Shown one piece after another: positions 20,413 to 22,448 of a stretch of DNA of 64,000 nucleotides. Position 1 is the stretch's first letter. Each line of letters begins with the position of its first letter. Origin of the DNA: Acidimicrobiaceae bacterium (GTDB lineage Bacteria > Actinomycetota > Acidimicrobiia > Acidimicrobiales > Aldehydirespiratoraceae); contig JAPPLH010000003.1 in the NCBI GenBank assembly GCA_028819505.1, forward strand, positions 1 through 64,000, written 5' to 3'. The notes under the pieces are model-generated. The model saw only the letters and a program-made list of their open reading frames with translations, searched no databases and was not told where the DNA came from. The position numbers and the translations under genes were made by a program.

Positions 20413-20484
20413 GCCCCCGTAGCTCAGGGGATAGAGCAACGGCCTCCGGAGCCGTGTGCGCAGGTTCGAATCCTGCCGGGGGCG
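20413..20484 (+). tRNA. tRNA-Arg (anticodon CCG)
   Basis: Acceptor GCCCCCG pairs with CGGGGGC; D-arm GCTCAGGGGATAGAGC; anticodon stem ACGGC/GCCGT with loop CTCCGGA (anticodon CCG, reads CGG); T-arm CAGGTTCGAATCCTG. The discriminator base is G20484. CCA is not encoded. The ATG of the next gene begins at 20486, one base after the tRNA. Confidence 0.95.
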
Positions 20485-20485
20485 C

Positions 20486-21664
20486 ATGACAGTCACCGAC
20501 GCGGCGCCTGCGCCGGCCAAGAAGCCCCGCTGGACCTACCAGTGGAAGGAGCTCCACGACGAGGTCATCACCTCGGGCCTGTGCACCGGCTGCGCCGGGT
20601 GCGTGATCGCCTGCCCCCACCACGTGATCGGCTACACCCACGAGCCCGGCGCCTACAAGCCGTTCCACCTCGAGGAGGAGCTCGGCGCCGACGACTGCGT
20701 CCACGGGGTCAAGGGCTGCACGTCATGCACCCGGGCCTGCCCCCGATTCCGCATGTGGGAGCCGGAGGCCGACATGCACCTGTTCGGCCGGGAGCGGCAC
20801 CCCGACGAGATGTCGGGCGTCTACTCCGACATCCTGCTGACCCGGGCCTCAGACGACTTCGTCTACGAGGTGGGCCAGGACGGCGGGCTGGTGTCGGCCA
20901 TCCTGATCTGGTGCATGGAGAACGACATCATCGACGGCGCCCTCACCAGCGGGGTTGAGTCGCTGCCGAACGGCGAGCCGGGGTGGAAGGCCTTCCCGAT
21001 GGTGGCCACCAACCGTGAGGAGGTGCTGCGGGGCGCGGGCAGCCGGTACACCTACTCGGCCAACCCCATCGCCTTCGAGGAGGCCCGTGATAAGGGGCTG
21101 GACCGCCTGGCGCTGGTGGGCATGAGCTGCCAGACGTCGGTGGGGCCGGTGATGTGGCACCGCAAGGTGGGCAAGGTGAGCAAGCCGATCAAGCTCAACA
21201 TCGGCCTGCTGTGCTCCAAGTCGTTCGACGACTCGCTGTTCGACGAGCTCTTCGAGGTGAAGTACGGCCTGCCCTCCGAGCAGATCTCGAAGATGAACAT
21301 CAAGGGCGTCTTCCAGATCTGGACCAAGGACGGCCGCTACCACGAGATCAACCTCAAGGAGTGCCACGCCTGGACCCGGGAGGGCTGCAACCTGTGCCCG
21401 GACTTCGCAGCGGAGCACGCCGACATCTCCACCGGAGGCATCGGCGACCTGACCGACTGGACCCTCACCATCGTGCGCACCGAGTTGGGCCGGGCCGTGA
21501 TCGACGCCATGGTGCGCGACGGCGCGATCGAGACCCGCCCCGGCGACGACGATCCCGGCGCCATCGCATTGATGCACCGCCTGTCGGCCAAGAGCCGGGA
21601 GCGCTGGCCCCAATGGGCCGACGGCGCGGCCCGCCTGGGGCTGCCCGAACGCAAGCCGGCCTGA
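20486..21664 (+). CDS. FrhB-family iron-sulfur flavoprotein (coenzyme F420 hydrogenase/dehydrogenase beta subunit type)
   Basis: 392 residues. An N-terminal ferredoxin-like module has two clusters: CTGCAGCVIACP and CTSCTRACP. It is followed by the FrhB/FdhB N- and C-terminal domains (SDILLTRA, QDGGLVSAILIW, GMSCQTSVGPVM, GLLCSKSFDD, LKECHAWTREGCNLCPDFAAEHADISTGGIG). These proteins carry FAD and 4Fe-4S and move electrons between F420 and other carriers; the partner here is unknown. The start is only one base after the tRNA-Arg, so ribosome binding would have to use the G-rich tRNA acceptor strand or a processed, nearly leaderless mRNA. Confidence 0.88.
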   Translation: MTVTDAAPAPAKKPRWTYQWKELHDEVITSGLCTGCAGCVIACPHHVIGYTHEPGAYKPFHLEEELGADDCVHGVKGCTSCTRACPRFRMWEPEADMHLFGRERHPDEMSGVYSDILLTRASDDFVYEVGQDGGLVSAILIWCMENDIIDGALTSGVESLPNGEPGWKAFPMVATNREEVLRGAGSRYTYSANPIAFEEARDKGLDRLALVGMSCQTSVGPVMWHRKVGKVSKPIKLNIGLLCSKSFDDSLFDELFEVKYGLPSEQISKMNIKGVFQIWTKDGRYHEINLKECHAWTREGCNLCPDFAAEHADISTGGIGDLTDWTLTIVRTELGRAVIDAMVRDGAIETRPGDDDPGAIALMHRLSAKSRERWPQWADGAARLGLPERKPA

Positions 21665-21730: not shown

Positions 21731-21822
21731 TTCCCGCTCTTGTTCGCTTCGCTCACGGGCCGCTCGGGCCACGGCCTCGCTCGCGCCGGTAGGCTCGCCG
21801 CGGCCTGTTCGCTCGGCCTCTA
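21731..21822 (+). repeat. Dispersed intergenic repeat, copy B
   Basis: Starts TTCCCGCTCTTGTTCGCTT, continues CGCTCACGGGCCGCTCGGGC and ends CTCGGCCTCTA. It lies between the FrhB gene and the DsbA-like gene. It is the only copy whose orientation is reversed relative to the flanking genes. Confidence 0.8.
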
Positions 21823-21833
21823 GGGAGCCCGTC

Positions 21834-22448
21834 ATGGACATCGAGTTCTGGATCGACCCGCTTTGACCGTGGTGCTGGGTGACGGCCCGTTGGGTCGTCG
21901 ACGAGGTGCAGCCGGCCAAGGACCTGAACATCACCTGGCAGCCGATCAGCCTGTTCTTCAAGAACGATCCCGATCCTGAGGGCGACTACTACAAGCACTC
22001 GTACTTCAGCCTGCGGCTGATGAGGGTGCTGGAGTCGGTGCGGGAGGCTGACGGCGACGACGCGGTGGGGCCCCTGTACTGGGAGTACGGCCGGCGCCTG
22101 CACCACGACGGGGTGCGGGAGTTCGCGGTGGCCGACGCGCTGGAGGCGGTCGGCTACGACACCTCCCACGCGGCTGCCTTCGACGACGACTCCTGGGATG
22201 CTGAGATCCGAAAGCGCATGGACGAGGGTCTGGCGTTGTGCGGCGACCAGGTGGGCACCCCGATGATCGCCCTCAAGGACCGCAACGGCCTCAAGCAGGG
22301 CTACTTCGGCCCGGTCATCACCCGGGTGCCGCCCCCCGAGGACTCCCTGGCCATGTGGGACGCCCTGGTGGCCATGATGAACGTGGCCGGCTTCTGGGAG
22401 CTCAAGCGCACCCGCACCGAACGCCCCGAGTTCGGCCAACGTCCATAA
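21834..22448 (+). CDS. Candidate selenoprotein: DsbA-family mycothiol-linked oxidoreductase with UPWC active site
   Basis: Read from ATG 21834 (Shine-Dalgarno AGGGAG upstream), the frame gives MDIEFWIDPL, then TGA at 21864-21866, then PWCWVTARWVVDEV and stays open to 22448 (204 residues including Sec11). The family (DsbA-like, M. tuberculosis Rv2466c type, mycothiol-dependent) has FWFDPLCPWCW at this place, so the TGA replaces exactly the first, nucleophilic Cys. The family C-terminal signature ELKRTRTERPEF and the loop VGTPMI are present, so the remainder is intact. A strong hairpin starts 14 nt after the TGA. If TGA were a true stop, translation would have to restart downstream and lose the active site. 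Alternatives are a recent Cys-to-stop mutation or a base-calling error. Confidence 0.8.
21864..21899 (+). promoter_or_regulatory. Candidate bacterial SECIS element with Sec codon
   Basis: After TGA (21864-21866) come 14 nt, then GACGGCCC (21881-21888), loop GTT, and GGGTCGTC (21892-21899). The eight pairs include one G-U. The loop begins 22 nt after the TGA and its first base is G; both fit the general bacterial SECIS model (short apical loop with an early G, loop about 16-37 nt from the UGA). Confidence 0.65.

Follow-up and report, generated by a model that had tools for sequence, protein, structure and literature searches.

The locus described here raises the question of whether an in-frame TGA codon, standing where mycothiol-linked reductases have their attacking cysteine, ends translation or encodes selenocysteine (Sec). 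It lies in an Acidimicrobiaceae bacterium (GenBank assembly GCA_028819505.1, contig JAPPLH010000003.1), the first 64,000 nucleotides of this contig being the stretch that was analysed and that is called the window below. We consider that the gene most probably codes for a selenoprotein with Sec inserted at UGA codon 11, and assign this reading a probability of about 0.93.

Gene layout and active site

The reading frame, which begins with ATG at 21834 and ends with TAA at 22446-22448, contains a single in-frame TGA (Table 1). The codon is embedded in the motif FWIDPL-U-PWCW. A profile search with the read-through protein gave a match to the Rv2466c-like family PF22234 with an E value of 2.9e-36 (125.8 bits against a curated cut-off of 27), which spans residues 10-192 of the protein and the complete profile (1-180 of 180). 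The Rv2466c-type structures 4zil and 5xur were matched by phmmer over nearly the full length (E 1e-33 to 1e-36), with residues 11 and 14 falling on chain positions 19 and 22, respectively. The catalytic pair of Rv2466c (Mrx2), a mycothiol-dependent reductase/nitroreductase of Mycobacterium tuberculosis, consists of Cys19 and Cys22, and Cys19 carries out the initial nucleophilic attack (PMC11841060). The U11-P-W-C14 motif occupies the same columns as C19-P-W-C22, the predicted Sec replacing Cys19. The preliminary description had placed a Shine-Dalgarno sequence and an ATG in front of a TGA at codon 11, in the position of the catalytic cysteine; all of this was exact, and the cysteine is Cys19 of Rv2466c. 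The window protein shares with Rv2466c the full-length homology, the CPWC position and the C-terminal ELKRTRTExP sequence, and differs from it by the TGA-encoded Sec and by a SECIS within the coding sequence.

Table 1 Features of the locus in the window
Feature	Position	Strand	Remark
FrhB/FdhB-type Fe-S flavoprotein gene (PF04432, PF04422)	20456..21664	+	Probable operon partner
Shine-Dalgarno sequence AGGGAG	21822..21827	+	6 nt 5' of the ATG at 21834
Predicted Sec-containing Rv2466c/Mrx2-like gene (PF22234)	21834..22448	+	204 aa, U11; catalytic motif U11-P-W-C14
In-frame TGA (predicted Sec) codon, codon 11	21864..21866	+	In the column of Rv2466c Cys19
Bacterial SECIS hairpin inside the reading frame	21881..21899	+	Stem 21881-21888 with 21892-21899, loop GUU 21889-21891

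The match of the window protein to PF01323 was only partial (residues 3-43, 27.1 bits against a cut-off of 25.6), with UxxC present, and none of the NCBIfam models matched the protein. A standard ORF caller reports a protein of 189 aa starting from GTG codon 16 (21879), in which the active site is lost. Since NCBIfam provides no match and the ORF caller trims the active site, the gene is probably misannotated throughout its order.

The hairpin downstream of the TGA codon

The hairpin GACGGCCC-GUU-GGGUCGUC forms 8 bp closed by a 3-nt loop. Its stem starts after 14 nt and its loop, with G as the first base, after 22 nt 3' of the TGA, as had been claimed. Folded as a single sequence it was not exceptional (z -1.55; 15 of 200 shuffles of this GC-rich DNA folded equally well), and a lone hairpin in GC-rich DNA is little proof. 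The comparative data exceed chance. All 8 pairs were present in 47 of the 53 distinct TGA sequences and 7 pairs in the other 6, the loop being GUU or GGU. Among 26 representatives, 97.6% of the pair cells were standard, and both the covariation score and the number of cells changed on both sides were higher than in all 500 shuffles; a shift in the register of the hairpin alignment abolished the covariation signal. At the alignment pair 21-33, in which the third base of the Thr17 codon faces that of the Val21 codon, each being a silent position, the combinations G-C, U-A, C-G and A-U were all seen. The third-base identity of the fourfold codons 16, 17, 18, 21 and 22, which lie in the hairpin, was 0.75-0.94, compared with at most 0.67 in the other 58 fourfold columns of the gene, so that these five are the most conserved of all 63. 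The frozen silent sites together with the silent covariation show that the constraint acts on the RNA and not on the protein. As evidence, the hairpin of the preliminary description was thus weak when taken alone but gained weight from its conservation with compensatory silent changes. Its location just 3' of the UGA, the early G in the loop and the structure conserved between species are those of a bacterial SECIS; a scan of the region with Rfam matched no family to the hairpin and gave chance matches only.

Cys orthologues retain the hairpin to different degrees. The orthologue of G181 (L074, G181:C1:127249-127872), a single-contig genome with selA, has TGC followed by a hairpin in which all 8 bp are formed and the loop is GUU; this would be either a fossil SECIS or the mark of a recent Sec-to-Cys change. 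The remaining Cys members have 1-6 of the 8 pairs. Fossil SECIS elements were found in Cys forms of FdhA and of a HesB-like protein (Zhang et al. 2006; PMC1794560); G181 likewise keeps its hairpin after a Cys codon, although in a different protein family.

Distribution of the TGA codon among relatives

In a comparison sample of 198 related genomes, an orthologue with TGA as the only internal stop and with an identity of at least about 53% was found in 66. The TGA was at codon 11 in every extracted TGA orthologue and the frame was otherwise intact (53-100% identity). All other orthologues had TGC or TGT at this codon, i.e. always Cys, and no decay was seen elsewhere in the gene, by which the preliminary description would have recognized an ordinary nonsense mutation. 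The selA gene was present in all 66 TGA genomes, whereas none of the 63 selA-negative genomes of the sample had a TGA copy (Fisher p 1e-14, relatedness between the genomes being uncorrected). In G019, which belongs to the same family as the window genome and has a Cys orthologue, selA was undetectable. The Cys orthologues of G067, G120, G135 and G181 occur in genomes that retain selA, and Sec is therefore not indispensable.

In the orthologue tree the TGA rows formed one well-supported clade (99), with six Cys rows as scattered leaves inside it. This fits a single gain of Sec followed by several returns to Cys, the number of which is not fixed since support for many inner branches is weak. Outside the same order, no high-scoring TGA orthologue turned up among 396 sampled genomes of the phylum; there were also matches with lower scores and an internal TGA, and the one that was read had Cys at this codon and the TGA at its C-terminal end. 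The Sec form thus appears to be limited to one order, where it is carried by a group of Actinobacteria that live in the sea or in association with sponges.

Selenocysteine machinery of the genome

The window's own genome is a metagenome assembly (94% complete, 167 contigs), and its gene set is found again throughout the genus. The search for sel genes, suggested in the preliminary description, found selA and selB adjacent to each other (G000:C123), a tRNA-Sec with the anticodon TCA, i.e. UCA in RNA (C102), and selD (L018, G000:C28:2075-2989), which itself has an in-frame TGA (HGAG-U-ACK). SelA, SelB, SelD and tRNA-Sec are thus all encoded in one genome. A strong hairpin lies directly 3' of the TGA in selD.

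The gene, the conserved TGA, the SECIS and this machinery are read directly from the DNA, and from them we infer the actual insertion of Sec. Those checks suggested in the preliminary description that were carried out all spoke for its reading. UGA codon 11 would be decoded by SelB and tRNA-Sec(UCA), directed by the SECIS, which is part of the coding sequence and lies within about 35 nt 3' of the UGA.

Alternative readings of the TGA codon

TGA is a stop in the standard code and truly terminates other genes of this genome, e.g. the upstream neighbour. A nonsense mutation, leaving a dead gene or just a 10-residue peptide, was already disfavoured in the preliminary description. Constraint is visible at both the protein and the RNA level, and the recurrence of the same TGA in otherwise intact orthologues, in 66 of 198 genomes and down to about 53% identity, refutes the pseudogene, to which we give hardly any probability. 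An error of assembly or sequencing, the true codon being TGC or TGT, might be suspected in a single metagenome assembly, but it is refuted by the same TGA in independent assemblies from different projects and in single-contig genomes such as G022 and G056; its probability is practically nil.

A start at GTG codon 16, with the upstream part untranslated, agrees with the frame given by the ORF caller and would produce the 189-residue protein without the active site. We regard this as very unlikely: codons 4-10 (EFW[IV]DP[LIA]) and P12-W13-C14 are kept as protein across the orthologues while their third bases vary, and the Cys orthologues are open throughout from the upstream start. The incorporation of a different amino acid at UGA, through suppression or a variant code, is also extremely improbable. 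Some bacteria do read UGA as Trp, but ordinary genes end with TGA here, the alternative in the orthologues is always Cys, the TGA form is restricted to selA-positive genomes and a SECIS-type hairpin is conserved.

Possible function and mycothiol link

The predicted selenoprotein would, by homology, be a cytosolic thioredoxin-fold reductase. Sec11 would replace the attacking Cys19 of Rv2466c/Mrx2 and Cys14, corresponding to Cys22 in Rv2466c, would act as the resolving residue. Mycothiol would then reduce the U11-C14 selenenylsulfide or a mixed one formed with mycothiol itself. Disulfides or oxidised/electrophilic (nitro-type) compounds may serve as substrates. The protein is most likely a thiol-disulfide or nitro reductase that depends on Sec and is linked to mycothiol.

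Two MshC-like ligases are encoded in the genome (418 and 388 bits against MshC, compared with 347 against CysRS), which favour MshC over CysRS by 40-70 bits; the curated cut-off for MshC is 485. Synthesis of mycothiol by the host is therefore likely though short of proven, the matches being under the cut-off (418 vs 485). The two ligase genes (L141 and L142) lie on G000:C17 and C152, one of them adjoining a CysRS gene, which is an unusual duplication.

The gene for the FrhB/FdhB-type flavoprotein probably has its true start at the ATG near 20486. In 27 of the 28 same-family loci with sufficient sequence, such a gene immediately precedes the predicted selenoprotein gene and has the same orientation, the distance being almost always 10-191 nt. 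That the flavoprotein supplies electrons to the selenoprotein or takes them from it is speculative. This neighbourhood, the MshC matches below the curated cut-off and the identity of <40% to mycobacterial Rv2466c-type proteins would suit a selenoprotein that is independent of mycothiol, i.e. a DsbA/FrnE-type oxidoreductase or an F420-linked reductase working with the FrhB-like protein. We consider such a function unlikely, though less so than the other readings of the TGA codon, since it is the mycothiol-dependent family PF22234 that the protein matches over its whole length, the genome encodes MshC-like ligases and the more distant TGA orthologues have no FrhB neighbour nearby. Altogether, a mycothiol-linked role of the window enzyme seems moderately likely.

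Relation to known selenoproteins

DsbA-like selenoproteins with the UxxC motif (PF01323/COG2761) have been known from marine metagenomes since the Sargasso Sea survey of 2005 (PMC1088965) and were also found in the GOS survey of 2008 (PMC2398784). The inventory of 2026, the latest one published, comprises 119 prokaryotic selenoprotein families, with 'DsbA-like, PF01323, UxxC' as the nearest entry and no Rv2466c-like or mycothiol-linked member (PMC13188914). The window protein shares with the DsbA-like selenoprotein form 1 the thioredoxin-fold DsbA superfamily and Sec as the first residue of UxxC, whereas the Rv2466c-like branch has a Pfam family of its own; the branch is set apart from the published sequences by family label, and labels given at the superfamily level may hide some of its sequences. 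In a literature search with most subscription journals outside its coverage, no paper joined Rv2466c with selenocysteine, and a search for the UPWC motif returned unrelated papers only. The novelty of Sec in the mycothiol-linked branch, which the preliminary description had put forward with caution, is thus supported for the family, which is absent from the inventory, but not for the superfamily, in which UxxC forms were already known. The protein apparently represents a new branch within a known kind, the DsbA-superfamily selenoproteins.

We consider it probable that this is an undescribed Sec form of the mycothiol-dependent Mrx2 which links selenium to mycothiol redox chemistry, was gained once in one actinobacterial order, reverted repeatedly to Cys and perhaps has an F420-type flavoprotein as its partner. 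If so, the mycothiol-linked Mrx2 branch would have its first recognized Sec enzyme. A comparison of the natural Sec and Cys orthologues could then show how selenium affects mycothiol-dependent reduction, and the Cys forms scattered through the clade, of which one still has its complete hairpin behind TGC, would provide natural Sec-to-Cys reversions with a known state of the SECIS. Relatives of the Rv2466c family without the second cysteine, having CPWS, CPFA or CPWA instead (L110, L111, L123 and L125-L127), are common in the phylum.
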